NCBI RefSeq assembly: GCF_041435215.1
Contig: NZ_CP108394.1
Location: 9,796,001 to 9,860,000 of the forward strand
Direction: 5' to 3'
Length of the DNA: 64,000 nucleotides
Source: Streptomyces sp. NBC_01314
Lineage (GTDB): Bacteria; Actinomycetota; Actinomycetes; Streptomycetales; Streptomycetaceae
Under the pieces are notes generated by a model, which was given only the letters and a program-made list of their open reading frames with translations, did not search any database and was not told where the DNA came from. A program made the position numbers and the translations under genes. Below, piece by piece: positions 30,265-46,670 of the stretch (its first letter is position 1; each line of letters opens with the position of its first letter).

Positions 30265-30295
30265 GGTGTGCGCTATTGGTGGTTGATTGCACACC
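30265..30295. promoter_or_regulatory. Inverted repeat between LysR and iron-ADH genes
   Basis: GGTGTGC, 17 bases, GCACACC: perfect 7-bp arms in the 128-base divergent region. It could be a LysR binding site, since these proteins bind dyads next to the gene they control. No clear promoter hexamers were found. Confidence 0.4.
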
Positions 30296-30361
30296 GCGCG
30301 GGACCGCACAGTCGGGGCAGTGGGCGTGACATGCCCCGCCGTTCCTGCCGAAAGGGCCGCC

Positions 30362-31586: not shown

Positions 31587-32090
31587 TGACTGACACCGCA
31601 GCAGTCGAGATTCTCGCCGACGTCCATCGGGGCGTCGGCCGCATCCTGCTGAACCGGCCCAAGGCGCTCAACGCCCTGACGACAGACATGGTCACCGCCA
31701 TCGACGTGTGCTCGCCGCGTGGGAGGACACACCGCTGTCCGCTGTGCTGATCGCCAGTACCAGCACGAAGGCGTTTCTGTGCCGGTGGAGACATCCGTAC
31801 GATCCGCGAGTACAGCCTCGCCGGGGAGGATGCCGAGGCCAGCGAGCGGTTCTTCGCCTCCGAGTACCGGCTCAACGCCCGGATCGCCGAGTATCCGTCC
31901 CGATCGTGTCGCTCATCGATGGTGTGTGCATGGGCGGCGGTCTCGGTCTGTCCGTCCACTGCGGCTTCCGCGTCGTCACCGAGCGCGCGGTGCCGGCGAT
32001 GTCACTGCCGCCAGGCTTCCTGCTCCAGTGTGCCGCGCTCTTCGCGAAGAGTGCGACCAACTTCCTCGCGGACCGATCGCTCCAGCCCAC
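31587..32090 (+). pseudogene. Decayed 3-hydroxyisobutyryl-CoA hydrolase/enoyl-CoA hydratase
   Basis: Starts well: ATG 31587 gives MTDTAAVEILADVHRGVGRI, LLNRPKALNALTTDMVTAID. Then successive frames are needed: LAAWEDTPLSAVLIASTSTK, GGDIRTIREYSLAGEDAEAS, ERFFASEYRLNARIAEYP, and VPIVSLIDGVCMGGGLGLSV then HCGFRVVTERAVPAM. The order and motifs match a crotonase-fold HIBYL-CoA hydrolase of valine catabolism. At least three frame shifts separate the pieces and the C-terminal third is gone. Confidence 0.8.
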
Positions 32091-32129
32091 AGCCGAACCG
32101 GACGATTTCCCCGACCACACGAGCGTGAG

Positions 32130-32657
32130 TTGGACCGGACAACTGTCCGTGCTCACCTCAAGCCACCTTTCTCCTCCCCTCCCCGTTGGCAGGATCCCGC
32201 GATTGTGGGAGCAACCGCAGGCCGCACCACGGGTGTGGAGGTGCTGCGCGACCTACTCGAGCGACGCCTGCCCGCACCGCCCATCGTGGCCGCCCTTGAC
32301 TTCGCCCTCGACGAAGTGGAGGAGAGCCGCGTGGTCTTCGCGCTGGTGCCGGGCGAGGAGCACTGCAACTTCCTCGGCAGTGTGCACGGAGGGGTCTACG
32401 CCACGCTGCTCGACTCGGCGGCCGGCGGGGCGGTCCAGTCGACCTTGCCGCAGGGCACGGCATGCACCTCGCTCGATCTGTCCGTGAAGTTCCTCCGGTC
32501 GAACACGGTGGACACGGGCAAGGTCCGCGCCATCGGTACGGTTGTCAGCAGGGGACGCCAAACTGCTCTCGCGCAGGCCCAGTCGGTCGACGCGAAGGAT
32601 CGTCTCCTCGCCCACGCCACCAGCAGCTGCATGCTCTTTCCACTCCCCACGCCCTGA
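32130..32657 (+). CDS. PaaI-family hotdog thioesterase (start uncertain)
   Basis: The conserved protein runs from RWQDPAIVGATAGRTTGVEV through LLERRLPAPPIVAALDFALD, LGSVHGGVYATLLDSAAGGA to SRGRQTALAQAQSVDAKDRL, a single hotdog domain with the HGG motif typical of PaaI/YigI-type acyl-CoA thioesterases. The RWQDP segment is conserved in relatives, so translation should start before it, but the only in-frame start there is a TTG at 32130; a GTG at 32205 lies after it. The gene directly follows a decayed hydrolase, and its own start may have been lost in the same event. Possibly expressed, possibly 5'-damaged. Confidence 0.7.
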   Translation: MDRTTVRAHLKPPFSSPPRWQDPAIVGATAGRTTGVEVLRDLLERRLPAPPIVAALDFALDEVEESRVVFALVPGEEHCNFLGSVHGGVYATLLDSAAGGAVQSTLPQGTACTSLDLSVKFLRSNTVDTGKVRAIGTVVSRGRQTALAQAQSVDAKDRLLAHATSSCMLFPLPTP

Positions 32658-32808: not shown

Positions 32809-33489
32809 TCAAAGTGAGGCGCCGGCGCACTGGACGAGTTGCTGCCCGGTGATCGCTCCGCCGTCCGGGCCGAGGAGGAACGCGGTCAGGCCGGCGACCT
32901 CGTCGGGAGAGACGAACCGACCGAGGGGCGGGTGCGCCGGGGGCGTGCGGGCGCGGCCGGGGTCGGACAGCATCGGCGTGTCGGTCGGGCCGGGGGCGAT
33001 CACGTTGACGGTGATGCCGCGGACGGCCAGTTCCGCTGCCCAGGAGCGCGCGAGCGCGGGCAGGGCGGCTTTGGTCGCGGCGTACTGGCTCTTGCCGGGT
33101 ACGCCGGTGGCGGTGCGGCTGCCGACGAGGACCACGCGGGCCCCGTCGGGCAGCCGGTCGGCGAGCGTGTCGACGAGGATCGTGGCGGCGTGGACGTGTA
33201 CCCGCCACATCAACTCGCCGTCGTCGGCGGACAGTTCGCCCAGCGGTGCCGAGCGCTGGAGTCCGGCGGCGTGCACGACGGCGTCGGGGGCGGGTACGCC
33301 GTCGAGGACCCGGACCAGCTCGGTGGGCTCGGACAGATCCGCCGGGAGCCAGGTCAACCCCGGCGCGGGTACCGGACGGCGGCGACTGATCCCGGTGACC
33401 TGCCATCCCTCCCGCAGCAGGCGACCACTGATCGCCTCACCGATTCCCGAGCTGACGCCGGTGACCAGGGCGTGCCGTGTCTCAGACAT
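32809..33489 (-). CDS. Short-chain dehydrogenase/reductase
   Basis: A 226-residue SDR: TGVSSGIG cofactor loop at 10-17, VVHAAGLQ, catalytic Ser in VGSRTATGV, YAATK as the Tyr/Lys pair, and the C-terminal FLLGPDGGAITGQQLVQCAG close to that of 3-oxoacyl-ACP reductase-like sugar dehydrogenases. It lies 51 bases downstream of the DeoR-type regulator on the same strand and is probably part of the sugar-acid island at 33.5-45.2 kb, perhaps oxidising the imported substrate. Substrate unknown. Confidence 0.92.
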   Translation of the reverse strand: MSETRHALVTGVSSGIGEAISGRLLREGWQVTGISRRRPVPAPGLTWLPADLSEPTELVRVLDGVPAPDAVVHAAGLQRSAPLGELSADDGELMWRVHVHAATILVDTLADRLPDGARVVLVGSRTATGVPGKSQYAATKAALPALARSWAAELAVRGITVNVIAPGPTDTPMLSDPGRARTPPAHPPLGRFVSPDEVAGLTAFLLGPDGGAITGQQLVQCAGASL

Positions 33490-33540
33490 GGCACACCCGC
33501 CCGGCCCGCGTGCCGGCGTGCTCGGCGCTCTCCGACAACG

Positions 33541-34353
33541 TCATGAGGGCGACGTCCTGTGCTCCGGCTCGGTGGACGCCGTCACCTCGGTCAGCACCAC
33601 CTCGACGCCGCGTCCGCGCAACTCGGCCACGATCGACGGGTCGGCGCCGTCGTCGGTGACGAGGGTCCAGTCGGCCGGGAGCTTCGCCCAGGCGTGGAAG
33701 GGGCGGCGGCCGAGCTTCGCCGCGTGCGCGAGGACGTACACATGGTCGGCGCGGCGGGCCATCAGTTCCTTCAGCCGCGTCTGGCGCAGATCGGCCTCGC
33801 AGATGCCGTGCTCGGGCGAGATGCCGTCGGTGCCGAGGAAGACCCGGTCGAAGGTCATCCGTTCCAGCGCGGCCTCGGTCAGCGGACCGACGAAGCCCTG
33901 ACTGAGCGGCCGCAGCGTGCCGCCGAGACACTCGACGTGCACGGTCTCGGCGTCGGAGAGTTCCTGAAGGGCCGTCAGACCCGTGGTCGCGACCGTCAGT
34001 TCCTTCGCGGAGCGCAGTTCGTGGGCGAGGGCACCCACGGTCGATCCGGCGTCCAGCAGCACCGTCTCACCGGCGCGCACCTCGGCGGCGGCTCGGCGCG
34101 CGATGGCCCGCTTCTCCTCGAACGCCTCGCCCGTACGCTGCCGGAGCGACGCCTCGGGATGGGCGGTCAGCGCCATGGCGCCGCCGTAGGTGCGGGCCAG
34201 CCGGCCGTCGGCGGTCAGCCTGGCGAGGTCCCGGCGGATCGTGGAGGCCGTCACGCCGAAGCGCTGCGACAGCTCCTCGACGCTGGTGAGGCCGGTCGTG
34301 GTGGCCACGTGCAGGATCCGTTCACGCCGGGCCTTGGATCCGAGGGGAGACAT
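33541..34353 (-). CDS. DeoR/GlpR-family repressor
   Basis: A 270-residue regulator. N-terminal winged helix (ARRERILHVATTTGLTSVEE, FGVTASTIRRDLARL, RLARTYGGAM) and C-terminal sugar-phosphate sensing domain with TVLLDAGSTVGALAHEL, ECLGGTLRPLSQGFVGPLTE and DGISPEHGICEAD. DeoR proteins are released from DNA by phosphorylated intermediates; here the obvious source is the sugar-acid kinase encoded by the adjacent gene. Between the two genes is a short heptanucleotide tandem repeat. Likely regulates the divergent island promoters near 36.8 kb. Confidence 0.93.
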   Translation of the reverse strand: MSPLGSKARRERILHVATTTGLTSVEELSQRFGVTASTIRRDLARLTADGRLARTYGGAMALTAHPEASLRQRTGEAFEEKRAIARRAAAEVRAGETVLLDAGSTVGALAHELRSAKELTVATTGLTALQELSDAETVHVECLGGTLRPLSQGFVGPLTEAALERMTFDRVFLGTDGISPEHGICEADLRQTRLKELMARRADHVYVLAHAAKLGRRPFHAWAKLPADWTLVTDDGADPSIVAELRGRGVEVVLTEVTASTEPEHRTSPS

Positions 34354-34377
34354 CTGTCGTGGAGTCCTTCTCTGCGC

Positions 34378-34408
34378 GGACTGCGGACTGCGGACTGCGG
34401 ACTGCGGT
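34378..34408. repeat. 7-bp tandem repeat (CTGCGGA)
   Basis: Three exact CTGCGGA units (34381-34401), a fourth with one change (CTGCGGT) and a partial unit before them. The array fills half of the 56-base gap between the DeoR start (34353) and the kinase-PdxA stop (34410), where a promoter or ribosome binding site for DeoR would lie, so copy number could alter expression. Confidence 0.85.
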
Positions 34409-34409
34409 C

Positions 34410-36758
34410 TCAGCGGACCGCTACGGACGACATCTCGGCTGCCTGGCGCACGGCCTCGACCATGCTACCGGCCTCGGCCACGCCCTTGCCTGCGATGTCG
34501 AAGGCCGTTCCATGGTCCACCGAGGTGCGGATGACGGGCAGTCCCACGGTCAGGTTGACGCCCGCCTCGATGCCCAGCACCTTCACCGGGCCGTGCCCCT
34601 GGTCGTGGTACATCGCGACGATCAGGTCGTAGTCTCCGCGCCCGGCGAGGAAGAAGGCCGTGTCGGCCGGGAGGGGGCCGCGGGCGTCGATGCCGTCCGC
34701 GCGCAGCACTTCGAGCGCGGGGACGATCTTCTCCTCCTCCTCGCCGTAGCCGAACAGTCCGTTCTCACCCGCATGCGGGTTGATGCCGCAGACGCCGATC
34801 ACCGGCTTCGCGACACCGGCCCGCACCATCGCGTCGTGACCGCGGCGCACCGTGCGCTCGACCAGGCCCGGCTCGATGCGCCGTATGGCGTCGATCAGGC
34901 CGATGTGGGTGGTGACGTGAATGACCTTCACCTTGGGCGTGGACAGCATCATCGACACCTCGTCCACGCCGGTGAGGTGGGCCAGCAACTCGGTGTGGCC
35001 CGGGTAGAGATGCCCGGCGGAGTGCAGGGCCTCCTTGTTGAGCGGCGCGGTGCAGATGCCGTGCACGGCGCCCTTCATCGCGAGGTCCGCGGCCACCCGT
35101 ACGTACTGGTAGGCGGCCTCGCCGGCGAGGGCGGACAGTTCGCCCCAGGGCAGGTCTGCGGGGAGCAGGTCCAGGTCCACGACGTTGACGCGGCCCGGTG
35201 GGAACTCGGCCTCGCCCGGGGTGGTCACGGAGACGATGTCGCAGTCGACCCCCAGGATCGCGGCGGCCTGCCGCAGCCGCCCGGCATCACCGATGACGAC
35301 GGGACGGCAGCGGGCGAGGGTGTCCGGGTGCAGCAGCGCCGGGACGATCACCTCGGGGCCGATGCCCGCGCCGTCTCCCATGGTCACCGCGATGAGCGGC
35401 AGCGAACGGTGGTTGTCGGCGGTCGGGGTCGCGTTCACCGGGAAGTCTCCTTGCGGTGGGAGGTGGGGAAGGTCCGGCCGGAGCGCTGTGGCGATCCGCA
35501 GCAGGGAATCGGTGTCGCCGAAGCTGCCGGGCCGGGTGACGACATGGCGTCCGTCGGGTGTGAGTGCGTGGACGGCGCCGTGGTGGATCTGGCCGAGCGG
35601 CGCGAGGTGCGCGACGCCGAGCGCGTCGAGGACGCGGCGGGCGGTCTCACCACCCGTCAGGACGAGGTCGGCATCGCCCGCGCGGTCGGCGGCGAGGCGA
35701 GCGAGTGCGGACACCAGACGGCGTGCCGAGCCGGGCCGGATGCCCGGGCCGCTGTCGATGCTGAGGACGGTGACAGCGTCTGAAATTTCATCACATGAAT
35801 GCGGTGCGCCCGGGGGCGACAGAACGTCGGAGTTCATGACGCCGGAGTCCAGGACGCCGGGGTCCAGGACGCCGGAGTCCAGGACGTCGGGGTTCACGGA
35901 TACATGGCGGGCGCCGCGCTCCGTGAGTTGCGCGATCTGCGCAGGCGCGGAGGGATCGGCGGTGCCGACGACGACCAGGAGGGGCCGTCGCCGGCGTTCC
36001 CCGGCCGTCGCCGGAGCCGCTTGTTCCGTCGTGGTTGCTGCCGACGTCCCGTCGGTACGCCTCAGCAGGCGGCCGACCGCCGCGGCGAGGCCGCTCGTGC
36101 CTGCCAGGCGGACGCCGGGCCCGCAGGCGAGCGCCGCCTCGGCGATCAGGTCCAGGTCCGAGTCCGTCTCGGCGTCGCACACCGGAAGGTGTCCGGCGCT
36201 GACCGCCGCGCGCAGCATGGCGGCCAGCGCGTCGCCCCGTACCTCCTCCAGCGGGACGAGCGTCGTACGGGCGTCCCCGAGTGCGGCGGAGACCGACGGC
36301 GGGGGCGCGGTGCTCTCCGCCCGCCAGGCGTCCGTGGTGTGCAGGGGGACGCCGTCGAGATGGACGACACCGCCACGGACCGTGCGGCCGAGGGCGGGCA
36401 GGGCGGTGGCGACGACGACGCCCGCGGTGCCTTCGGCGCAGGCGGCCGTCTCGGCGGCGAGGTTGCCCCGCAGCAGCGAGTCGGCCTTCTTCAGCACCAG
36501 AACGTCCGAGGGCACGGCTCGCAGTGCCTCGCGTACGCGGCGGGCCGCGTCGGCCGCGGGCAGGCAACGGCAGTCGAGGTCGACCACGACGGCCTCGCCG
36601 TACGCGTGGGGGTCCAAGGACGCCGGACCGAGCACGATCCGGCCCGGCACGCCGAGCGCGACCGCGGTCTCCGCCGCCCCGGACAGGTCGTCGGCGAGGG
36701 CGAGGACACGTCGCGGTGCCGTCTCCTCGCGGAGGGGGGAAGTGGAGGGGAAGGGCAC
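34410..36758 (-). CDS. Fused four-carbon acid sugar kinase-PdxA-type dehydrogenase
   Basis: One uninterrupted 782-residue frame from GTG 36758 (AGGAGG six bases upstream). Residues 1-435 are a DUF1537-type kinase: RRVLALADDLSGAAETAVAL, VLKKADSLLRGNLAAE, and the C-terminal nucleotide-binding part LVLTGGETARRVLDALGV. Residues 441-782 are PdxA-like: LIAVTMGDGAGIGPEVIV, GHTELLAHLTG, HVTTHIGL and AMYHDQGHGPVKVLG carry the metal-binding histidines. Known DtnK/PdxA2-type pairs phosphorylate and then oxidatively decarboxylate D-threonate or erythronate; the fusion would do both steps. An internal GTG at 35438 (codon 441) has AAGGAG seven bases upstream, so free PdxA may also be made. A 15-bp repeat array lies in the kinase half. 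Confidence 0.92.
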   Translation of the reverse strand: MPFPSTSPLREETAPRRVLALADDLSGAAETAVALGVPGRIVLGPASLDPHAYGEAVVVDLDCRCLPAADAARRVREALRAVPSDVLVLKKADSLLRGNLAAETAACAEGTAGVVVATALPALGRTVRGGVVHLDGVPLHTTDAWRAESTAPPPSVSAALGDARTTLVPLEEVRGDALAAMLRAAVSAGHLPVCDAETDSDLDLIAEAALACGPGVRLAGTSGLAAAVGRLLRRTDGTSAATTTEQAAPATAGERRRRPLLVVVGTADPSAPAQIAQLTERGARHVSVNPDVLDSGVLDPGVLDSGVMNSDVLSPPGAPHSCDEISDAVTVLSIDSGPGIRPGSARRLVSALARLAADRAGDADLVLTGGETARRVLDALGVAHLAPLGQIHHGAVHALTPDGRHVVTRPGSFGDTDSLLRIATALRPDLPHLPPQGDFPVNATPTADNHRSLPLIAVTMGDGAGIGPEVIVPALLHPDTLARCRPVVIGDAGRLRQAAAILGVDCDIVSVTTPGEAEFPPGRVNVVDLDLLPADLPWGELSALAGEAAYQYVRVAADLAMKGAVHGICTAPLNKEALHSAGHLYPGHTELLAHLTGVDEVSMMLSTPKVKVIHVTTHIGLIDAIRRIEPGLVERTVRRGHDAMVRAGVAKPVIGVCGINPHAGENGLFGYGEEEEKIVPALEVLRADGIDARGPLPADTAFFLAGRGDYDLIVAMYHDQGHGPVKVLGIEAGVNLTVGLPVIRTSVDHGTAFDIAGKGVAEAGSMVEAVRQAAEMSSVAVR
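35819..35893. repeat. 15-bp coding minisatellite in the kinase domain
   Basis: Five 15-bp units of the form CCAGGACGCCGGAGT encode, on the minus strand, NPDVL-DSGVL-DPGVL-DSGVM-NSDVL, an in-frame pentapeptide repeat inserted between GARHVSV and the SPPGAPHS stretch of the kinase. The unit length keeps the frame, so copy number could vary without breaking the enzyme. Confidence 0.85.
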
Positions 36759-36977
36759 GTCATCCTCCTGGACCTGTCGTCGAAGGGGGCACGCGGGGCG
36801 GCCTCGGCGCTCGATGATGACACAGTCTGCGCGATGTGCGCGAGACCTCTTGCGTGATTCGCGCAACCATGGAACGGTTTCCGGCGCGACAGAAAACCGA
36901 CGGCACCCGACGGCGTCCTGCGGGACCGGGCGCCGTCCCGAGCCGGTCGCCGCACAAAAAACCCCGAGAGGTCGACG
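36759..36977. promoter_or_regulatory. Divergent control region of the sugar-acid island with operator-like repeats
   Basis: 219 bases between the kinase-PdxA gene and the binding-protein gene. At 36828-36843 TGCGCGA occurs twice in tandem (spaced by TG), and 36850-36866 is the inverted repeat TTGCG-tgattcg-CGCAA. The three related half-sites within 39 bases suggest a cooperative repressor site, most simply for the DeoR protein encoded nearby. I found no consensus -10/-35 pair. Confidence 0.5.
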
Positions 36978-38555
36978 ATGACCCGAACTCCTCCGAGTGA
37001 GACGCCCAGCCGTCGCACCCTGCTGCGCTGGGGCGCCGCGGGCGGCGCCGGTCTCGCTCTCTCCCCGCTGGCCGCCTGCGCCGGACCCACCGGCGCCCCC
37101 GGCCCCGGCACCCTCACACTCGGGCTGAACCGCTCGCTGGTCAGCCTCGACAACAAGCTCAACCAGTTCGACGCCGCGGTGACCGTGCAGCGGGCCGTGC
37201 GTCAGGCCCTCACCGCCATCGGTCCGGACATGCGACTCACCCGGGTCCTCGCCGACCGGTTCGAGATGACCGCGCCGACCACCTGGAGCGTCCGCCTGCG
37301 CGACGGGATCCGCTACTCCGACGGCCGGCCCGTGACCGTCGACGACGTGACCACCGCGGTGCGCATGTACGGAGAGGTCGCCGGCTCGTTCATCCTCGGC
37401 CTGTTCCCCGAACTCCCCGACGTCGAGGCGACGGGCGACCGCACCTTCCTGCTCCACACCCGCGAACCGGTGCCCATCCTGGACCGGCTGATGGCCAACA
37501 TCCTCATCACCCCGGCGAAGGACAACCGGCCAGAGGAACTCCGCTCCGGCGTCGGCACCGGCCCCTACCGGGTGGCCGGCGCCAACAGCGGCGCGGGCGA
37601 GTACACCCTGGCCCGGGTCCCGGAGTACTGGGGCGGGCGGCCGCCCGTCGAACGGGTCCGCGTCCGCTTCGTACCGGAGGAGTCGAGCCGGGTCGTCGCC
37701 CTGCGCAGCGGCGAACTGGACGTCATCGACACCATCACCCCCGACTCCGCCGAACAGCTCACCGGGCTGCCCGGCGTGCGCCTGGAGCGGACCTCCGGGG
37801 TGCGGATCTGCCAGCTCTTCTACAACTTCCGCAAGCCGAAGAAGCACCCGCTCGCCGACGCCCGGGTGCGCCAGGCGCTGACGTACGCCATCGACGGCGA
37901 GTCCCTCGTCCGAGACGTGCTCACCGACTCGGCCGAGCAGGCCCAGGGAGTGGTCCCGCTCAGTCTCCAGGGCGCCGAACGCACCGGCCGCTTCGCCCAC
38001 GACCCCGCACGGGCGCGGCAGTTGCTCAGGTCCCTGGGCGTCGCCGACGGGCTGCGGATCAAAATCATCTGGGAGTCGGGCGAGTTCGCCGCGGACGCCT
38101 CCGTGATGGAAGCCATCGCGGAGATGCTGAAGGAGGTCGGTGTGCGCGCCACCCTGCAACAGTTCGAGCCCGGCGGCGACATCCTCAAGTGGCGCCAGGG
38201 CAAGGGCGGCGACTGGGACGTCATCGGCAACGGCTTCCCCGGCACCACCGGCCAGGCCACCACCATGCTCCAGGCCATGTACGCGGGCACGGCCGAGGAC
38301 GAACGCACCGGTGACGCGTTCATGGGCTACGTCGTCCCCCGCATCGCCCGACAGCTGTCCGACGCGGCCACCGAGACCGACCCCGCCACCCGCGACCGCA
38401 AGCTCGCCGCCGCCCAGCACGCCGTCTGGGACACCTGGCCGGCCATGTGGGCCTTCGTGCCGAAGACCGTGCTCGCTCGCCGCGCCCGCGTCGACGGCGT
38501 CCGGTTGCTGCCGGTCAACTCCTACGACCTGACCGCCGTACGGCTGGAGGGCTGA
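36978..38555 (+). CDS. Substrate-binding lipoprotein of an Opp/Dpp-type ABC importer
   Basis: A 525-residue family 5 solute-binding protein. The N-terminus combines a twin-arginine motif (SRRTLLRWG) with a lipobox (LAAC, Cys34), so it should be a Tat-exported lipoprotein. The mature part has TWSVRLRDGIRYSDGRPVTV (family 5 signature region), GTGPYRV, and ARVRQALTYAIDGESLV. Family 5 proteins bind peptides, nickel, or oligosaccharides and sugar acids. It is the first gene of a five-gene transport operon followed by catabolic genes, so I expect a carbohydrate ligand. Confidence 0.93.
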   Translation: MTRTPPSETPSRRTLLRWGAAGGAGLALSPLAACAGPTGAPGPGTLTLGLNRSLVSLDNKLNQFDAAVTVQRAVRQALTAIGPDMRLTRVLADRFEMTAPTTWSVRLRDGIRYSDGRPVTVDDVTTAVRMYGEVAGSFILGLFPELPDVEATGDRTFLLHTREPVPILDRLMANILITPAKDNRPEELRSGVGTGPYRVAGANSGAGEYTLARVPEYWGGRPPVERVRVRFVPEESSRVVALRSGELDVIDTITPDSAEQLTGLPGVRLERTSGVRICQLFYNFRKPKKHPLADARVRQALTYAIDGESLVRDVLTDSAEQAQGVVPLSLQGAERTGRFAHDPARARQLLRSLGVADGLRIKIIWESGEFAADASVMEAIAEMLKEVGVRATLQQFEPGGDILKWRQGKGGDWDVIGNGFPGTTGQATTMLQAMYAGTAEDERTGDAFMGYVVPRIARQLSDAATETDPATRDRKLAAAQHAVWDTWPAMWAFVPKTVLARRARVDGVRLLPVNSYDLTAVRLEG

Positions 38556-38558
38556 GCC

Positions 38559-39488
38559 GTGCCGAAGTATCTCGCCCGCCGTCTCGGCCAGAGCCTGTTG
38601 ACCATCTTCCTGACCGTCTCCACGGTCTTCGTCCTGGTCCGGCTCGCCCCCGGAGACCCCGCCGCCGCATACGCGCCACCGAGCGCCACCACAGCCGACC
38701 TGGAGCGCATCCGCGCCCAGTTCGGCCTCGACAAGCCATTGATCACCCAGTACGGGATCTTCCTGCGCGACCTGCTGAGCGGCGATCTCGGCACCAGCTA
38801 CTCCTTCCACGACTCCGCCCTCAGCGTGGTCCTGGACCGCATGCCGTACACGCTCACGCTCTCCGTCGCGGCGATCGCCGTCACCGTGGCCGTCGCGGTC
38901 CCGCTGGGGGTGTGGATGGCCCGCCACGCCGACACCTCGCGCGAACTCGGCGCCAACGTCCTGACCATCACCGGACAGTCCATGCCGGACTTCTGGACCG
39001 GCGTGATGCTGCTGACGGTCTTCGCCGTGCTGCTGCCGGTGCTGCCCGCCTCCGGCTTCACCTCATGGAGCGGCCTCGTCCTGCCGACCGTCACCATCGC
39101 GATCCTCCAACTCGCCCTCGTCTCACGGCTCGTACGCCGCGAGATGACCACGGCACTCGCCTCGCCGTACATCACCGTGGCCCGCTCGCGCGGTGTCTCC
39201 GAACGGGCCCTCACCTGGCGGTACGCCCTCGCCAACTCGTCCGTCCCGCTCGTCACCGCGGTCGGCACCCGCTTCGCGGCACTGCTCAACGGCGTCGTGC
39301 TGGTCGAGGTCGTCTTCGGCTGGCCCGGCGTCGGTTCCCTCGTCGTCCGCGCCCTGGAGACCCGCGACTACCCGCTCATCCAGGCGACCGTCCTGGTCAC
39401 GGCGACCCTCGCCATCCTCGTCCAGCTCCTCGTCGACCTCGCCTACCCGCTCCTCGACCCGCGGGTCCGACTCGGAAAGGCGGCCTGA
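38559..39488 (+). CDS. ABC importer permease, DppB/OppB type
   Basis: A 309-residue inner-membrane protein: N-terminal MPKYLARRLGQSLLTIFLTV as in DppB proteins, LAPGDPAAAYAPP, the periplasmic-face GIFLRDLLSGDLGTSYSF, five further membrane helices and the cytoplasmic EAA-like loop YITVARSRGVSERALTWRYA. It starts at GTG 38559, four bases after the binding-protein stop codon. Confidence 0.95.
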   Translation: MPKYLARRLGQSLLTIFLTVSTVFVLVRLAPGDPAAAYAPPSATTADLERIRAQFGLDKPLITQYGIFLRDLLSGDLGTSYSFHDSALSVVLDRMPYTLTLSVAAIAVTVAVAVPLGVWMARHADTSRELGANVLTITGQSMPDFWTGVMLLTVFAVLLPVLPASGFTSWSGLVLPTVTIAILQLALVSRLVRREMTTALASPYITVARSRGVSERALTWRYALANSSVPLVTAVGTRFAALLNGVVLVEVVFGWPGVGSLVVRALETRDYPLIQATVLVTATLAILVQLLVDLAYPLLDPRVRLGKAA

Positions 39489-39490
39489 CC

Positions 39491-40405
39491 ATGTCCGCCA
39501 CGCTCACACCGTCCGCCGACAGCGCCCGCTCCAGTGCTGTCACCGCCCGGCACCTGGCCCGCGCCACCGCCACCAGGCAGCGGCGCGGCGCCCGCTTCAA
39601 GCTGTGGGCGGGAGCCCTGTGCACCGCGCTGGTCGCCCTGCCGGTGGCCCTCGCGAGCCTGCTGCCGCTGCCGGACCCGGACGCCCAGAACCTCGCGGGG
39701 CGCCGGCTGCCGCCGCTCACCGGCGGGCACCTGTTCGGCACCGACCAGCTCGGGCGCGATCTGCTCTCCCGCATCCTGCACGGCGGCCAGGTGTCGCTGA
39801 CCGTGGGCATCCTCGCCGTCGTCGTCTCCGGGCTCATCGGGATCGCCGCAGGCTCGGCGGCCGGTTACTTCGGGGGCTGGATCGACACGGTCGTCAGCCG
39901 GCTCCTCGAAGCCCAACTGGCGCTGCCCCTGCTGATGATGCTGCTGCTCGTCGTCGCCCTCTTCGGCCCGTCGGTCACCGTCATCACCTGCGTGATCGCG
40001 ATCGCCCAGTGGCCGGAAGTGGCCCGGCTGACCCGCTCCCTGGTCCTGGTCGAACGCGAGAAACCGTATGTGGCGGCCGCCCGTCTGCTCGGTATGCGCA
40101 GCTGGTCGGTCCTGGGACGGCACATCATCCCCAACGTCCTGCGCCCCGCGAGCCTGGTGGTCCTGCTGCTGCTCGCCCAGGCCGTGCTCCTGGAGAGCGC
40201 CCTCAGCTTCCTGGGCGCCGGACCCCAGCGGCCGTTCGCCACCTGGGGCCGCATCATCTCCGACGGCCAGGACTACATCACCACCTCCTGGTGGCTGGTC
40301 ACGCTCCCCGGCCTGGTCATCGCCCTCCTTGTGGTCGGCGTCAACCTCATGGGCGACGGCCTGCGCGACCGCATCCGTACGACAAAGCCCGCGAAGGGAG
40401 CCTGA
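39491..40405 (+). CDS. ABC importer permease, DppC/OppC type
   Basis: A 304-residue permease with a cytoplasmic N-terminal tail, a first helix (ALCTALVALPVALASLLPLP), the DppC hallmark HLFGTDQLGRDLLSRILHGG and an EAA loop PYVAAARLLGMRSWSVLGRH. It begins two bases after the DppB-type gene and pairs with it to form the membrane channel. Confidence 0.95.
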   Translation: MSATLTPSADSARSSAVTARHLARATATRQRRGARFKLWAGALCTALVALPVALASLLPLPDPDAQNLAGRRLPPLTGGHLFGTDQLGRDLLSRILHGGQVSLTVGILAVVVSGLIGIAAGSAAGYFGGWIDTVVSRLLEAQLALPLLMMLLLVVALFGPSVTVITCVIAIAQWPEVARLTRSLVLVEREKPYVAAARLLGMRSWSVLGRHIIPNVLRPASLVVLLLLAQAVLLESALSFLGAGPQRPFATWGRIISDGQDYITTSWWLVTLPGLVIALLVVGVNLMGDGLRDRIRTTKPAKGA

Positions 40406-40408
40406 GCC

Positions 40409-41287
40409 ATGACCAGCGACACCTCGTCGGCCTCCGGCGCCCTGCTGGAGGTCGAGGACCTGCAGATCGAACTGGTCACCCATCGTGGCGTGGTCCGCGC
40501 CGTCGACGGCGTGAGTTTCACCGTCGGACGCGGCGAGACCGTCACGCTCATCGGGGAGTCCGGCTCCGGCAAGTCCACCACGGCGATGGGCGTGCTGCGG
40601 CTGCTGCCCGAAGGGCTCGCCGTGCTGTCCGGCACCGCCCGCATCGGCGGCGAGGACGTCGTCACCGACCCCGGGGCGGCCCGGCGGGCGCGCGGCCGCA
40701 CCGTGTCCCTCATCCCCCAGGACCCGATGACCGCGCTCAGCCCCGTCCACACCGTCGGGCGGCAGCTCGGCGAGGCCCTGCGGCTGCGGCACCCCGGCCT
40801 GTCCCGGGCCGAGGCCCGCGAGCGCGGCACCCACCTGCTGGACCAGGTACGGATCAGCAGGCCCGAAACGCGCTGGAAGGCGTACCCGCACCAGTTCTCC
40901 GGCGGCATGCTCCAGCGCGTCCTCATCGCCGTCGCGCTGGCCGCCGAACCCCAGTTGCTGGTCGCCGACGAACCCACCTCCGCCCTGGACGCCACCGTCC
41001 AGGCGAGCGTCCTCGACCTGCTGATGGACCTTCAGGAACGCACCGGCGTAGGCATGTTGATGATCACCCACGACCTCGGCGTCGCCCGGCTGGTGTCCGA
41101 CCGCATCCACGTCATGAAGGAGGGCCGGTTCGTCGAGTCGGGGCCGGCCCAGCAGATCGTCGAGCGGCCCGCACACCCGTACACCGGGAAACTGCTCGCG
41201 GCCGTCCCGAGCCTCGGACCCTGGGACGAGGACGGGCTCGACGACCACACCGCCCAGCCCGAGCAGGAAGACAGGGCCGCCCGATGA
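40409..41287 (+). CDS. ABC importer ATPase, DppD/OppD type
   Basis: A 292-residue ATPase. Walker A GESGSGKST near 50, Q-loop SLIPQDPMTAL, signature FSGGMLQRVLIA, Walker B LLVADEPTSALD and switch His in ITHDLG. It lacks the C-terminal cysteine-rich cluster seen in many OppD proteins. Its stop overlaps the next ATPase start (ATGA). Confidence 0.95.
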   Translation: MTSDTSSASGALLEVEDLQIELVTHRGVVRAVDGVSFTVGRGETVTLIGESGSGKSTTAMGVLRLLPEGLAVLSGTARIGGEDVVTDPGAARRARGRTVSLIPQDPMTALSPVHTVGRQLGEALRLRHPGLSRAEARERGTHLLDQVRISRPETRWKAYPHQFSGGMLQRVLIAVALAAEPQLLVADEPTSALDATVQASVLDLLMDLQERTGVGMLMITHDLGVARLVSDRIHVMKEGRFVESGPAQQIVERPAHPYTGKLLAAVPSLGPWDEDGLDDHTAQPEQEDRAAR

Positions 41288-42225
41288 GCCAGGCAGCAGT
41301 GACACCGGACGCGGCCGACGCCGCCGACGCGTCGGCGTTTCTCGCCGTCGAGGATCTCGTCGTCGACTACCCCACGCCGGCCGGCCCCGTGCGCGCCGTC
41401 GACCACGTCAGCTTCAGCGTGCCCCGCGGTGGCTCACTCGCCGTCGTCGGCGAGTCGGGCAGCGGCAAGTCGACCATCGCCTGCGCGATCGTACGGCTGC
41501 TCAAGCCCGCCTCCGGGCGGATCGTGCTGGACGGCACCGACCTCGCCGCGCTGCCCGAGCGGCGCCTGAGGCCGCTGCGGCGCCGCGTCCAGATGGTCTT
41601 CCAGGATCCCTACGGATCCCTCGCCCCGCACCTGACCGCCCTGGAGATCGTGGCCGAACCGCTGCGCGTCGCGGGCGTGAAGGACAAGACCGAACGGCGC
41701 CGCCGCGCCACCGGACTGCTCGACCGCGTGGGACTGCCGGCCACGGCACTCGAACGACGGCCCGCCGAGTTCTCCGGCGGACAGCGCCAGCGCATCGGCA
41801 TCGCCCGCGCCCTGGCCTCGGAACCCGACCTGCTGGTGTGCGACGAGGCCACCTCGGCCCTCGACGTGTCCGTGCAGGCCCAGGTGCTCGATCTGCTGCG
41901 CGAACTGCGGGAGGAGACCGGCATCACCTACATCGTCATCGCCCACCACCTCGGCGTGGTGCGCGAGATCAGCACCGACGTCGTCGTCCTGAAGGCGGGA
42001 CGGGTCGTCGAGCGCGGCCGTACCGCCGACGTCCTCGCCGCCCCCGCCGAGCCCTACACCCGCGCGCTGCGCCGCGCCGCCCTCGACCCCACGGCGATAC
42101 GGGGACTCAAACCCCGCACCCGGGCGGCCACGACCCCGGCCTCGGCCACCGGCGCACCGGAGCCGCACACGCCCCAGACCCCCCACAACCCTCTCACCGT
42201 CTCACCGGAAGGACCCGGCAAGTGA
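41284..42225 (+). CDS. ABC importer ATPase, DppF/OppF type
   Basis: A 313-residue ATPase: Walker A GESGSGKST near 57, Q-loop MVFQDPYGSLAPH, signature FSGGQRQRIGIARAL, Walker B LLVCDEATSALD and H-loop IAHHLG. A Pro/Thr-rich tail of about 45 residues follows the oligopeptide-type C-terminus. The start ATG overlaps the stop of the previous gene and its own stop overlaps the next start (GTGA). Confidence 0.95.
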   Translation: MSQAAVTPDAADAADASAFLAVEDLVVDYPTPAGPVRAVDHVSFSVPRGGSLAVVGESGSGKSTIACAIVRLLKPASGRIVLDGTDLAALPERRLRPLRRRVQMVFQDPYGSLAPHLTALEIVAEPLRVAGVKDKTERRRRATGLLDRVGLPATALERRPAEFSGGQRQRIGIARALASEPDLLVCDEATSALDVSVQAQVLDLLRELREETGITYIVIAHHLGVVREISTDVVVLKAGRVVERGRTADVLAAPAEPYTRALRRAALDPTAIRGLKPRTRAATTPASATGAPEPHTPQTPHNPLTVSPEGPGK

Positions 42226-43211
42226 CCACCGGCATCGAACTGCCGAACGTGCCCGTGCCCCTGTCCCGGCTCGTCCTCGGCACCATGACGTTCGGCGACA
42301 CCGTCGACCGGGCCGGCGCCGCGGACATGCTCGCGACGGCGCTGGAGGCCGGCATCACGGGCGTGGACACCGCGAACGGCTACGCCGGCGGCGAGAGCGA
42401 ACGCATCCTCGCCGAGCTGCTCCCCGCCCACCGCGACCGGATCGTGCTCGCCACCAAGGCCGGCATACCGCACCCCGACCAAGGGGAGCACGCCCCGCTG
42501 TCCGCCCCGGGCCTGCGGGCCGCCCTGGAAGGCAGCCTCAAGCGACTCGGCACCGACCGCGTCGACCTGTTCTATCTGCACCAGCCCGACCGGGCCACAC
42601 CCCTCGCCGAAACCCTCGCCACCGTCGCCGAGTTCGTCGCCGAAGGGAAGGTCCTCGCGCTCGGCGTCTCCAACTTCGCCGCCTGGCAGATCGCCGAACT
42701 GGTGCGCGTCGCCGACGAGGTGGGTGCCCCACGACCGGTCGTCGCCCAGCAGCTGCACAATCTGCTCGCTCGCCGGATCGAGGAGGAATACGTCGAGTAT
42801 GCGGCGTACGCAGCCGTCACCGGCCTGCGCACCATGGTCTACAACCCGCTCGGCGGCGGCCTCCTCACCGGACGGCACCGCTACGAGCAGGCCCCCGAGG
42901 GCGGACGGTTCGCCGACTCCCGGCTCGCGGACATGTACCGGCAGCGCTACTGGGATCCGCGCCTGTTCGCCGCGGTCGCCGAACTGGCCCGGATCGCCGA
43001 GGGCTTCGGCGTCCCGCTCACCGAACTGGCCCTGCGCTGGCTCCTCGACCGGGACTCGACCGACGCCTTGCTGCTCGGCGGTTCCCGGACCGGCCACCTG
43101 CGCGCCAACCTCGCCGCCGCGCAGGCCGGACCGCTGCCGCTCGACGTGACCGCCGCCTGCGACGAGGTCGGCGCGGGTCTGCGCGGCCCCATGCCCGCCT
43201 ACAACCGCTGA
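42222..43211 (+). CDS. Aldo/keto reductase
   Basis: A 329-residue (beta/alpha)8 oxidoreductase: GVDTANGYAGGESERILAEL contains the catalytic Asp and Tyr, VLATKAG the Lys, FYLHQPD the His; GVSNFAAWQIAEL and LLLGGSRTGHLRANL bind NADP. It resembles the YccK/IolS-like group that acts on sugar or keto-sugar carbonyls. It is translationally coupled to the importer, so it likely acts on the imported compound or its first product. Confidence 0.93.
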   Translation: MTTGIELPNVPVPLSRLVLGTMTFGDTVDRAGAADMLATALEAGITGVDTANGYAGGESERILAELLPAHRDRIVLATKAGIPHPDQGEHAPLSAPGLRAALEGSLKRLGTDRVDLFYLHQPDRATPLAETLATVAEFVAEGKVLALGVSNFAAWQIAELVRVADEVGAPRPVVAQQLHNLLARRIEEEYVEYAAYAAVTGLRTMVYNPLGGGLLTGRHRYEQAPEGGRFADSRLADMYRQRYWDPRLFAAVAELARIAEGFGVPLTELALRWLLDRDSTDALLLGGSRTGHLRANLAAAQAGPLPLDVTAACDEVGAGLRGPMPAYNR

Positions 43212-43282
43212 GCCCGGACGGGACCTCGAAGCCCCCGTCCCACTGCCCGCCCTCTGTGCCCCCTGTGAAGGAACACCTGACC

Positions 43283-44062
43283 ATGACCCCCGCAGAGTTC
43301 ACCGCCGCCCTGCGCGCCCGCGAGCAACTGCTCGGCTACTGGTGCCTGATGGACGCGCCCGTGGCCACCGAACGCATCGCCCGCCTCGGTTACGACTACG
43401 TCGCCCTGGACGCCCAGCACGGCCTGTTCGGCTACTCCGGCATGCTCAACAACCTCCTCGCGATCGACAGCCGGGGCTCCACGGCCGTGGGCCTGGTCCG
43501 GGTGGAGGCCAACGACCCCGCCCCGATCGGCCGCGCCCTCGACGCGGGCGCGACCGGAGTGATCGTGCCGCTGGTCGACACGGCCGCGCAGGCCGCCGAG
43601 GCCGTGGCCGCGGTCCGCTACCCGCCCCTCGGCCGGCGCTCCTACGGCCCGATGCGCTCGGCGCTGAGGATCGGCCCCGACCCGGCCGACACGCACGACA
43701 CCACGGTCGTCCTCGCCATGATCGAGACGGCCGAAGGACTCGCCGACGTCGAGGCGATCTGCGCGACGCCGGGCCTTGACGGCGTCTACGTCGGCCCCTC
43801 CGACCTGCGCATCGCCCTCGGCGGCGCCTCGTCCACGGACCCGAACCTGGCCGACGCCTTCGAGGCCGCACTCGGCACCGTACGCGAGGCAGCGGCGGCC
43901 GCCGGAATCGCCGCGGGCATCCACAACCCGGACGGGGCGAGCGCCGCCAAGCGCCTCGCCGAGGGCTTCACCTTCGCGACCGTCGCCTGCGACCTGGTGC
44001 ACCTGGAACAGACCGCCCGCCAACACCTGGGCGCTGCCCGGACCTCTGGAGAGGCACTGTGA
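43283..44062 (+). CDS. HpcH/HpaI-family aldolase
   Basis: A 259-residue class II-type pyruvate aldolase. LGYWCLMDAPVATERIARLG and YDYVALDAQHG at the N-terminus, AMIETAEGLADVEAI with the metal-binding Glu, and GLDGVYVGPSDLRIALGG with the Asp. Relatives (HpaI, GarL, RhmA) cleave 2-keto-3-deoxy acids into pyruvate and an aldehyde. I chose ATG 43283, with AAGGAAC in front. It would suit a pathway in which a sugar acid is dehydrated and cleaved. It overlaps the start of the next gene (GTGA). Confidence 0.94.
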   Translation: MTPAEFTAALRAREQLLGYWCLMDAPVATERIARLGYDYVALDAQHGLFGYSGMLNNLLAIDSRGSTAVGLVRVEANDPAPIGRALDAGATGVIVPLVDTAAQAAEAVAAVRYPPLGRRSYGPMRSALRIGPDPADTHDTTVVLAMIETAEGLADVEAICATPGLDGVYVGPSDLRIALGGASSTDPNLADAFEAALGTVREAAAAAGIAAGIHNPDGASAAKRLAEGFTFATVACDLVHLEQTARQHLGAARTSGEAL

Positions 44063-45231
44063 CGAACCCGCTCCTCGACGCCTTCGACCGCACCGACACC
44101 ACGCTGCCCGCACCGACCGTGCAGAACCACGCCGCCAACCTCACCGTGCTGCCCGGCGGGGATCTCGGCTGCGTCTGGTTCGGCGGCACGCAGGAGGGCA
44201 TGGCGGACATCAGCGTGTGGTTCTCGCGCCTCGCACCCGGCACCACGACCTGGACGGACCCGGTCCGCCTCTCGGACGACCCGACACGCTCAGAGCAGAA
44301 CCCCGTGCTCTTCCCCACCCCCTCGGGCGCCCTGTGGCTGCTGCATACCGCCCAGCGGGGCGGAGACCAGGACACCGCGGAGGTACGGCTGCGCGTCAGC
44401 CACGACAACGGCACGACCTGGGAGGCGACCCGCACCCTGTTCCCCGCGACCCCGGACGTCGGCGGCGTCTTCGTACGCCAGCCCCCCGTCGTCCTGCCCA
44501 CCGGCCGTCTGCTGCTGCCCGTCTTCCGCTGCCGGACCGCCCCCGGCGAGAAGTGGTCGGGCGACCTCGACACCAGCGCCGTCATGATCAGCGAAGACGA
44601 GGGCAGTACCTGGCGCGAGCAGCGCGTGCCCGACTCCACGGGCCTGGTCCACATGAACGTCCACCGGTTGCCGGACGGCTCCCTGCTCGCCCTCTACCGC
44701 AGCCGACGCGCCGACGCCGTCCACCGGTCCGTGTCGCTGGACGACGGCGACACCTGGAGTGAGCCGGAGCCGCTCGGGCTGCCGAACAACAACTCCTCGA
44801 TCCAGTACGTCCCGTTGGCCGACGGCCGCCTGGCTCTCGTCTACAACCACAGCAGCGCCGCCGACGCGACCGCACGCCGCGCCTCCCTCTACGACGAGAT
44901 CGACGACACGGGCAAACTCGCCGACCACAAGGCCCCGGGCGGCTCGGCGACCACGGCGGTACGGGAGGCTCCCTCGACCGCGTTCTGGGGTGCCCCCCGC
45001 GCGCCACTCAGCCTCGCCCTCTCCTCCGACGGCGGCCTGACCTGGCCGCTGCGCGCCGACCTCGTGACCGGCGACGGCCACTGCCTCACCAACAACTCCC
45101 GCGACGGCCTCAACCGCGAACTGTCCTATCCCTCGATAGCGCAGACACCGGACGGCGCCCTCCACATCGCCTACACACACCACCGAAAGGTCATCCGCCA
45201 CATCAGGCTCGCCCCGCAGAGCACGAGGTGA
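44059..45231 (+). CDS. Intracellular Asp-box (sialidase-like BNR) hydrolase
   Basis: A 390-residue six-bladed beta-propeller of the BNR_2 type. Four Asp boxes are visible: SHDNGTTWE, SEDEGSTWR, SLDDGDTWS and SSDGGLTWP. There is no signal peptide, so it should act in the cytoplasm on an imported substrate, unlike secreted sialidases. The FRCRTAPGEKWSGDLDTSAV and SYPSIAQTPDGALHIAYTHH stretches are typical of sialidase-family proteins in catabolic loci whose substrates are not sialic acid. It is the last gene of the transport operon and overlaps the aldolase gene; it may release a sugar acid from an oligosaccharide. Confidence 0.88.
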   Translation: MTNPLLDAFDRTDTTLPAPTVQNHAANLTVLPGGDLGCVWFGGTQEGMADISVWFSRLAPGTTTWTDPVRLSDDPTRSEQNPVLFPTPSGALWLLHTAQRGGDQDTAEVRLRVSHDNGTTWEATRTLFPATPDVGGVFVRQPPVVLPTGRLLLPVFRCRTAPGEKWSGDLDTSAVMISEDEGSTWREQRVPDSTGLVHMNVHRLPDGSLLALYRSRRADAVHRSVSLDDGDTWSEPEPLGLPNNNSSIQYVPLADGRLALVYNHSSAADATARRASLYDEIDDTGKLADHKAPGGSATTAVREAPSTAFWGAPRAPLSLALSSDGGLTWPLRADLVTGDGHCLTNNSRDGLNRELSYPSIAQTPDGALHIAYTHHRKVIRHIRLAPQSTR

Positions 45232-45568: not shown

Positions 45569-45660
45569 TCATGGTCGACGAAGCACACTTCGTGAAGAAC
45601 CTGTAGGCCGAGCGGCCCCAGACGGTCGCCCTGTGGGCGGAGCGTTGCGGGCACCCTTTT
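45540..45660 (+). pseudogene. Short SNF2/DEAD-helicase-like remnant
   Basis: The plus strand reads HLMVDEAHFVKNL, a stop codon, then AERPQTVALWAERCG. SNF2-type helicases have VVDEAHYVKN followed by a few residues and RTQAVRALAER in the same spacing. The match is short and contains a stop, so at best it is a scrap of such a gene next to the broken PfkB gene. Confidence 0.3.
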
Positions 45661-46453
45661 GGAGGCCTTCGAGAGCACCCTTGCGCGAGTCACCCGCGCC
45701 GACCGTGTCGACGACCTGCGTGGTCACCGCGGGCACGCGCAGCCGTTCGCCGTCGAGTGAGGCCATGGCGCCGTCGCCGCCGAGGGTGATGACGACGAGT
45801 CGTACCCCCGCGGCGTGCCAGGTGTCGCACGCCTGCTCGGGCGGGGTGCCCGTCAGGAGCAGTTCCAGGTCGTCCTCGCTCAGCCGCAGGATGTCGGCGA
45901 GAACGCACCAGCGTGCCAGCCGGGCGCGGTAGACCTCGGGGCGCACCAACAGCGGTCTTACGTTGGGATCGATGCTGATGGTGGTCTGCGGGGCGGCTGC
46001 CGCCGGGAACTCCTCCACCACCGCCCCGCCGGGCTCTCGGATCAGCGCCAGCGATCCGGTGTGGAGGCAGGCCGTTTCGGACAGATCCACCCTGGCCAGT
46101 TCGCCTGGGGTCCACTGCCAGTCGGCCGTGTTCTGGGCGTGGAACGAGAACGCGGCCTGCCCCGCGGCATCCAGCTCCGCCACGGCCAGTGTGCTGGGCT
46201 CGCCGGCGGCGACGGCGTTCGACAGGTCGACGCCGGACGCCTCCAGGTGGGCCCGGAACAGACGGCCGAACACGTCGTTGGACAGACGTGCGAGGAAGCG
46301 GGCTGGTGTGCCCATCCGAGCCAGGGCCACCGCCGTATTCGCGGGTCCGCCGCCGGGCAGCACCCGCAGGGCGAGTTCGTTCGCGGCGTCTGCCGGTTGG
46401 GTGAAGGCGTCCGCGACGCACTCTCCCAGGACGGTGATCTGATGCGGGCTCAT
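45569..46453 (-). pseudogene. PfkB-family carbohydrate kinase, truncated after the GAGD motif
   Basis: Starts normally at ATG 46453 (GGAGAG upstream): SPHQITVLGECVADAFTQP, LPGGGPANTAVALARMGTPA (sugar site) and FLARLSNDVFGRLFRAHLEA. The C-terminal part reaches VVDTVGAGDS, which holds the catalytic Asp, and then turns into RKGALEGLQKGARNAPPTG, unlike the SF-x-A-G-helix that must follow to complete the nucleotide site. About 50-60 normal residues are missing and the new tail runs into helicase-like debris. It is the last gene of the polyol operon; it is probably inactive or weakened, though the frame stays open. Confidence 0.75.
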
Positions 46454-46670
46454 GGGTTGCTCTCCCGAGGAAGGCTCGAAGAGGTCAAATGTGAGGCCGT
46501 GCGACGTTGCCGGGGCGCAGAGGACGTCACCCTCGTCGGAGAGCACCCGCCTTGAAGGGAGCACGTCGGGGCCGGACCCGGGCGATGACCGGTCCAGCCC
46601 CTGCCCGAGAGGTGCGTGCCACCGGGCGTGACGTCGGGGAGGACGACGAGGGCGTCGGCTGGGGTGGAGG

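Follow-up and report, generated by a model that had tools for sequence, protein, structure and literature searches.

The catabolism of D-threonate by a DUF1537-family kinase, DtnK, and a PdxA2-type dehydrogenase was reportedly described by Zhang et al. in 2016; the two enzymes convert D-threonate to dihydroxyacetone phosphate (DHAP) and CO2. A neighbourhood that contains genes of both kinds is in print: PMC12928451 describes an uncharacterised Escherichia coli region, GR6, between nagE and glnS, with genes for COG4692, NanQ-like, DapA, iron-type alcohol dehydrogenase (Fe-ADH), DtnK, PdxA2 and GlpR-type proteins, and compares it with Sinorhizobium meliloti. In plants, according to the background literature (PMC6811678, PMC12282258, PMC9997740, PMC7939467, PMC12168206, PMC10762512, PMC7693365, PMC11288761, PMC6353982, PMC7954711), the sugar acids Kdo (keto-deoxy-octulosonic acid) and Dha (3-deoxy-D-lyxo-heptulosaric acid) are confined to rhamnogalacturonan II (RG-II), a pectin of the primary walls of vascular plants, in whose chain D the Dha bears a terminal beta-1,5-arabinofuranose (Araf) and is linked to the backbone. 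The same sources place Dha in prasinophyte scales and in Tetraselmis, with 17% Dha in the intracellular and wall polysaccharides of T. suecica. In this study, a stretch of 64,000 nucleotides of the Streptomyces sp. NBC_01314 genome (contig NZ_CP108394.1, positions 9,796,001 to 9,860,000, hereafter the window; GC content 71%; 11.3 Mb in two contigs for the whole genome) is analysed, which carries a catabolic island at window positions 32809–45231. The best explanation of the island as a whole, to which a little less than an even chance is given, is that it imports Dha and breaks it down through D-threonate.

The constant feature of this island and its relatives is a set of reactions, not of orthologues: a pyruvate aldolase, a carbonyl reductase, a DUF1537 kinase and a PdxA2 dehydrogenase. 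Open reading frame (ORF) and family profile analysis resolved two divergent operons in the window, separated by a common gap at 36759–36977. The minus-strand operon encodes a 782-residue fusion of a DUF1537 kinase with a PdxA2-type dehydrogenase, read from a GTG start (34410–36758; PF07005, PF17042, PF04166), then a DeoR-family repressor, presumably the local regulator (33541–34353; PF00455/PF08220), and a short-chain dehydrogenase/reductase (SDR) of 226 residues with a YAATK motif (32809–33489; PF13561, E 1.9e-32). The plus-strand operon begins with a family-5 (Opp-type) solute-binding protein (36978–38555; PF00496, E 5.8e-63) that may carry a twin-arginine (TAT) signal, the TAT_signal match being below cut-off, and continues with two ABC permeases (38559–39488 and 39491–40405; PF00528 in both) and two ABC ATPases (40409–41287, PF00005 and PF08352; 41284–42225, PF00005). 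It ends with an aldo/keto reductase (AKR; 42222–43211; PF00248), an HpaI/GarL-type class II pyruvate aldolase (43283–44062; PF03328) and a cytoplasmic sialidase-fold BNR_2 protein, hereafter BNR, with a non-canonical active site (44059–45231). The gene families and their order agree with the initial annotation. Its statement that the plus-operon genes are coupled or nearly so holds for all junctions (in order, +3, +2, +3, −4, −4, +71 and −4 bp) except that between AKR and HpaI, which spans 71 bp.

Islands of this kind are sparse in the family, with BNR matches in two and kinase/PdxA matches in 18 of 249 sampled genomes, the own genome included (E 1e-60). A scan of GTDB contigs yielded 65 loci, 47 of them close, and gene content was counted in those 39 of the 47 whose BNR gene is intact and whose upstream stretch measures 7.5 kb or more. 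Near BNR, the kinase-PdxA genes were present in all 39, the ABC importer in 37, AKR in 36, the aldolase and DeoR in 27 each, and SDR in 18, with the SDR gene lying just past the fetched end in six further loci. The genera are Streptomyces, Goodfellowiella, Saccharopolyspora, Murinocardiopsis, Sinomonas and Modestobacter; in Sinomonas, a major facilitator superfamily (MFS) transporter adjoins kinase-PdxA and replaces the ABC importer. A neighbourhood confined to this strain, which the initial annotation counted against itself, is not what was found: the set occurs in six actinomycete genera and is rebuilt in Pseudomonadota and Bacteroidota.

The divergent promoter contains two 17-bp palindromes of the form TTGCGC-N5-GCGCAA, 23 bp apart. 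The upstream palindrome, CTGCGCGATGTGCGCGA (36827–36843), matches this form at 10 of 12 positions, as counted by eye, and the second, TTGCGTGATTCGCGCAA (36850–36866), at 11 of 12. Across the orthologous promoters of the window and of 37 other loci, 38 in all (leaving out the window's second copy and one duplicate locus; spans of 212–714 bp, a few reaching into coding ends), the best palindrome scored 10–12 of 12 in every case, against 0.96 promoters expected to reach at least 10 under first-order resampling, and paired TTGCGY half-sites stood exactly 23 bp apart in 19 of them. A search of the 11.3-Mb genome for the strict pattern TTGCGYN5RCGCAA gave a single hit, at the second palindrome, compared with six for the reversed control pattern. 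Since the operator is conserved in all promoters and its strict form is unique in the genome, it argues for a local regulator, presumably DeoR, which would repress both operons at the paired palindromes. The window DeoR is 79% identical to the DeoR of the sister cluster, described below, on an S. albus plasmid. The analysis supports the initial annotation's view of an island for the catabolism of a sugar acid, controlled by a single local regulator, and the shared divergent control region is conserved beyond chance; what it described as three half-sites are two palindromes with four half-sites. That the island and its operator are real is nearly certain.

Across Actinomycetota, Pseudomonadota and Bacteroidota the functional set recurs with non-orthologous parts, namely an HpaI or a dihydrodipicolinate synthase (DHDPS)-type aldolase, an AKR or an Fe-ADH, an importer of one of four types, and a fused or split kinase-PdxA2. 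BNR matches were found in 315 plasmid records, and ten plasmid loci from Pseudomonadota were inspected: nine BNR records of at least 45% identity (two from Pantoea, three from Rhizobium and one each from Agrobacterium, Sinorhizobium, Shinella and Methylobacterium) and a Caballeronia record from the kinase-PdxA list. A DHDPS-type aldolase, an Fe-ADH and PdxA were present in nine of the ten and a DUF1537 kinase in eight. The SDR of the window is 61% identical to that of the Caballeronia island and 52% to that of the Pantoea island, with the catalytic motif kept. In E. coli, the RefSeq gene order is SLC13 permease, YhcH, sialidase family protein, TerC, DHDPS and Fe-ADH, with divergent dtnK, D-threonate-4-phosphate dehydrogenase and DeoR genes (L142, 2771–11750), and at least 80% of the region is present in 1043 of 5426 complete genomes, on chromosomes only. 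The E. coli BNR is 57% identical to that of the window and keeps all nine compared positions. A Klebsiella plasmid (L073, 5711–12442) holds a different arrangement, in which a BNR of 27% identity accompanies a DHDPS-type protein, an FGGY kinase and an MFS transporter between insertion sequence (IS) elements; it is a further uncharacterised operon for a sugar acid, carried on a conjugative plasmid.

In Bacteroidota, 14 of 296 genomes gave matches to the D-threonate kinase model, all of them below cut-off, and 20 kb around six of the 14 matches were examined. Genes for Fe-ADH, DHDPS, PdxA and kinase stand in a row in four of the six stretches, followed by a Na+ symporter gene in three of these four. 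With one Bacteroidota Fe-ADH as query against 13 of the 14 genomes, matches of 53–100% occurred only in the same four operons, and three genomes gave matches of 27–39%. By family assignment, the aldolase and the reductase are therefore each replaced by an unrelated family across the islands. The four operons (L119–L122) look like polysaccharide utilisation loci. In L119 and L120 the neighbouring genes encode a sulfatase, a TonB-type receptor and a distantly related BNR_2 protein, and L122 has GH127-like (beta-L-arabinofuranosidase) and GH43-like proteins. The sulfatases fit the occurrence of Dha in T. suecica polysaccharides, and the GH127-like protein fits an RG-II chain D that ends in beta-1,5-Araf. 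Pfam scans of the four core-bearing stretches recognised no GH142 or GH143 enzyme, and the Bacteroidota, considered as a decisive test for Dha, are only suggestive.

A route by pyruvate aldolase, reductase, DUF1537 kinase and PdxA2 to pyruvate, DHAP and CO2 is probable. If D-threonate is the reduced form of the aldehyde that a pyruvate aldolase releases, the aldolase substrate would therefore be a C7 2-keto-3-deoxy-diacid. By Fischer bookkeeping, only the D-lyxo and D-xylo forms among the eight C7 stereoisomers give D-threonate, and Dha is the D-lyxo compound. That the substrate is Dha, a keto-deoxy heptulosaric diacid from plant pectin RG-II or algal walls, is put at an even chance. This estimate was raised from somewhat below even on account of the E. 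coli proteins, of which the kinase (526 bits, cut-off 450) and the dehydrogenase (680 bits, cut-off 583) pass the D-threonate models and the importer is of an anion or citrate type (CitMHS above cut-off, the DASS anion model below cut-off); a di/tricarboxylate-type importer would suit a diacid. The window fusion has both the DUF1537 and the PdxA domains, as in the D-threonate pathway, and scores below cut-off with the D-threonate kinase model (107.8 of 450 bits) and the D-threonate-4-phosphate dehydrogenase model (332.3 of 583 bits). Its relatives of solved structure are 4jqp (499 bits) and, for the PdxA2 domain, 6e85 (302 bits). Among 48 kinase-PdxA loci, counting the window's own locus and two duplicates, the pair forms a single stop-free frame in 15 and not in 33. 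The kinase half is less conserved than PdxA, at 82–89% versus 97–98% in the four closest loci and about 37–68% versus 79–93% in the remaining actinomycete BNR islands. A degenerate in-frame repeat, VLDSGVLDPGVLDSGVMNSDVL, lies in the kinase half at about residues 311–333.

The analysis shows which genes are present, how they are conserved and functionally replaced, that the operator is conserved, and the fold and catalytic residues of the proteins; from these we infer every activity, the order of the steps and the substrate. Dha would be taken up by the Opp-type ABC importer, and cytoplasmic BNR, together with the anomerase-like protein YhcH in some relatives, would ready the keto acid in its open-chain form, whether by hydrolysis, by ring opening or by some other reaction. 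HpaI would then cleave between C3 and C4 to give pyruvate and D-threuronate (tartrate semialdehyde), which AKR may reduce to D-threonate; the DUF1537 domain would phosphorylate O4, and the PdxA2 domain would oxidise C3 and decarboxylate the product to DHAP and CO2. SDR has no step in this proposal. The best models for the window aldolase are those for GarL (153 bits) and HpaI (139 bits); these and the keto-deoxy-rhamnonate aldolase model (99 bits) all score below their cut-offs of 393, 369 and 441 bits. The aldolase keeps D43, H46, R73, E148 and D174, which we take to be the catalytic Asp/His, the Arg and the metal-binding Glu and Asp. AKR keeps D49, Y54, K79 and H120, and its best structural relatives, 2c91 and 2bp1, are aldehyde reductases of the AKR7 group. 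This group includes succinic semialdehyde reductase, and D-threuronate is a dihydroxy-succinic semialdehyde. Among the DHDPS homologues, the GI/VK Lys motif is intact in all four proteins checked.

BNR has a sialidase beta-propeller with Asp boxes, and its closest named relatives are Streptomyces proteins of 91–93% identity. Tyr357 is invariant in alignments of 21 and 56 sequences, and so are R214, R314 and R376, which were compared with the arginine triad for the carboxylate of GH33 exo-sialidases; the first-blade Arg position, judged by eye, is apparently His24. These residue roles derive from sequence alignments, and the fold match shows no function. A weak similarity (E 5e-4) exists to 5mqr, presumably the GH143 Dha hydrolase of Bacteroides thetaiotaomicron. 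Hydrolysis by BNR has less than an even chance. The sialidase fold of the cytosolic enzyme agrees with the initial annotation, and the release of an acid sugar from an imported oligosaccharide, which it also proposed, is doubtful, given the loss of the sialidase Glu described below and the single-protein importers of relatives. Such importers, of a type typical for monomers, occur in Pantoea, Caballeronia, Methylobacterium and E. coli. A binding protein that prefers peptides, which the initial annotation counted against itself, is made less likely, yet not settled, by a Thr at the position of DppA Asp408, which we take to be the Asp that binds the peptide amino group; the assignment was made by sequence alignment.

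Several observations weigh against Dha catabolism as the common function. The only model passed by the window's own enzymes is the general PdxA model, named 4-hydroxythreonine-4-phosphate dehydrogenase (350 of 290 bits), and the top model of the DHDPS homologues is dapA, passed by the Caballeronia protein alone (240 of 206 bits), with keto-diacid aldolase or N-acetylneuraminate lyase (NAL) models next and below cut-off. In BNR, His198 aligns with the Glu of Tannerella forsythia NanH and of 4fj6, presumably the catalytic one, and the Tyr-Glu pair is not kept. The importers belong to four unrelated types, so the importer type fixes no ligand. Twelve of the 39 actinomycete loci, all from Streptomyces, lack the aldolase; no HpaI remnant was found in 15 aldolase-less loci at E 0.01, and all six genomes tested of the 12 encode an HpaI elsewhere at 63–76%. 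A sister cluster in Streptomyces, with AKR, HpaI, a 2-hydroxyacid dehydrogenase, kinase-PdxA and DeoR, is complete in L074 (6926–13066) and L048 (1221–7345), and its AKR-HpaI-dehydrogenase part is seen in L086–L089. It has neither BNR nor importer, and the core is therefore not tied to BNR; the sister cluster is the same core with another entry step. In Pantoea JZ2, the annotation of 36 kb shows no kinase gene, and none of the ORFs beside PdxA encodes one. The 29 kb covered in Pantoea piersonii hold a symporter-BNR-YhcH-SDR operon (L098, 12515–16243) but neither aldolase nor reductase, kinase nor PdxA. None of the flank proteins tested (nine in four loci and seven in L038, L013 and L039) is an RG-II depolymerase, and the genome search for further strict operators, which might have marked a regulon of RG-II enzymes, returned the island only. 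PMC12928451 suggests pyridoxal phosphate (vitamin B6) synthesis for the E. coli region. The P. piersonii operon also indicates that BNR and SDR may form a sub-module upstream of the core reactions. Flanking pectinases were considered as support and not counted as evidence, one of the nine flank proteins being a GH53 galactanase.

Among other explanations, the same route may serve another C7 ulosaric acid, such as the D-xylo form, or a C7 precursor that BNR dehydrates or delactonises to the 2-keto-3-deoxy acid, which would make BNR a processor of monomers and not a glycosidase. This is unlikely, though it accounts for the His198 shared with E. coli, Pantoea and Agrobacterium, the single-protein importers and the lack of any other dehydratase in the island, and the D-xylo form would likewise yield D-threonate; to our knowledge, however, no natural D-xylo isomer is known, and YhcH adjoins BNR in Pantoea and E. 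coli, so BNR is probably more than an anomerase. It is quite unlikely that the island scavenges tetronate, with BNR freeing D-threonate from a conjugate, the kinase and PdxA2 as the main line and AKR and aldolase as a side reaction. Kinase-PdxA is indeed the most constant part (39/39), and such pairs stand alone in L118 and Gemmobacter, but in three phyla kinase-PdxA is accompanied by an aldolase and a carbonyl reductase, each of which comes from one of two unrelated families, and such faithful replacement would hardly be expected of a side reaction.

It is very unlikely that the substrate is another keto-deoxy acid, for example Kdo, Kdn (keto-deoxy-nonulosonic acid), 2-keto-3-deoxygluconate (KDG) or a keto-deoxy-hexarate; the C4 acid would then come from tetrose oxidation. 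Ulosonic acids are suggested by the NAL-like DHDPS homologues, the sialidase-fold enzyme and YhcH, but cleavage of Kdo, Kdn and KDG gives arabinose, mannose and glyceraldehyde, not a C4 acid, and hexarates give a C3 acid; the island, moreover, contains no pentose or hexose kinase. That assorted sugar genes merely adjoin a peptide importer is hardly credible: the importer family takes its name from peptides and nickel, yet the gene order is kept in six genera around a single conserved bidirectional operator and the flank genes are not shared. Vitamin B6 salvage, in which the kinase and PdxA2 would recycle 4-hydroxythreonine to pyridoxal phosphate, as printed for the E. coli pair, is highly improbable. 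According to the literature, 4-hydroxythreonine is a possible substrate of DUF1537 members and PdxA2 is able to perform the PdxA reaction, and the window domain scores above the cut-off of the general PdxA model; this reading, however, leaves the aldolase, reductase, importer and BNR unexplained, both E. coli proteins exceed the D-threonate cut-offs, and a review regards the kinases rather as acid-sugar catabolic.

The limits of the island were examined in seven close relatives over 4.5–7.6 kb beyond SDR. DeoR and SDR are adjacent in all seven, and the window's LysR, Fe-ADH and thioesterase genes are absent from all of these stretches. On the BNR side, the neighbouring PfkB kinase and sugar solute-binding protein were found in none of the 47 loci, and the zinc-type alcohol dehydrogenase has a single match of 27%. 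The flank genes are thus not shared by relatives, and the island therefore extends from SDR to BNR. Just outside it, the Fe-ADH at 30287–31522, which has its own LysR and is absent beside the islands of all seven relatives, belongs to the family that provides the reductase in the pseudomonad versions. A 37-residue enoyl-CoA hydratase (ECH_2) match at 31708–32657 overlaps the thioesterase ORF in another frame and resembles a decayed hydratase gene. The PfkB match (45569–46564) stops at profile position 265 of 302, right behind the GAGD motif, and the gene may be truncated.

In the searchable literature, where most subscription papers are missing, no description of a Dha catabolic pathway was found. 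The initial annotation's view that the gene combination matches no named pathway stands to this extent; the gene neighbourhood as such has already been published for E. coli and S. meliloti in PMC12928451, which reads it as vitamin B6 synthesis. It is possible, though somewhat short of an even chance, that the island represents the first identified bacterial Dha pathway, one in which D-threonate is made in the cell. Three phyla, and about a fifth of complete E. coli genomes, would then have built this pathway out of unrelated aldolases, reductases and importers, with a sialidase-fold family at its centre that has moved on from the chemistry of sialic acids. If the assignment holds, it would close the catabolic gap for the Dha residue of RG-II, provide a natural source of D-threonate for the kinase/PdxA2 pair, reassign a large group annotated as exo-alpha-sialidase and explain an uncharacterised E. 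coli region. It would also provide enzymes and, in DeoR with its operator, a sensor for Dha, a sugar reported to lack standards.

Compared with D-threonate catabolism by DtnK and PdxA2, the island has the same two domains, fused in the window, and differs in the preceding aldolase, reductase, importer and sialidase-fold enzyme, with D-threonate expected to arise inside the cell. The proposed route may be regarded as a longer-chain analogue of the galactarate/glucarate route of GarL, GarR and GarK, in which an HpaI-family enzyme cleaves a keto-deoxy diacid to pyruvate and a semialdehyde acid before reduction and phosphorylation; it would be one carbon longer and end in decarboxylation by PdxA2 to DHAP, and none of the usual dehydratase families is represented in the island. 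Sialic acid utilisation, which employs a sialidase, an anomerase, NAL and an SSS or ABC importer, shares a sialidase-fold enzyme, the anomerase-like YhcH and, in the pseudomonad island versions, a NAL-superfamily aldolase, whereas the island lacks an amino-sugar kinase, epimerase and deaminase, its product would be treated as a C4 acid, and the sialidase residues are changed. The GH143 hydrolase, according to its description, is sialidase-like and acts on Dha in RG-II with a five-fold propeller and a Tyr-Glu pair, whereas the window BNR is cytoplasmic and has His198 in place of the Glu. The E. coli GR6 region and its S. meliloti relative share the functional set, from the sialidase-like COG4692 protein and the NanQ-like protein to DtnK, PdxA2 and the GlpR-type regulator, and the window differs in having HpaI for the DapA-like aldolase, AKR for Fe-ADH and the Opp ABC importer for the anion transporter.

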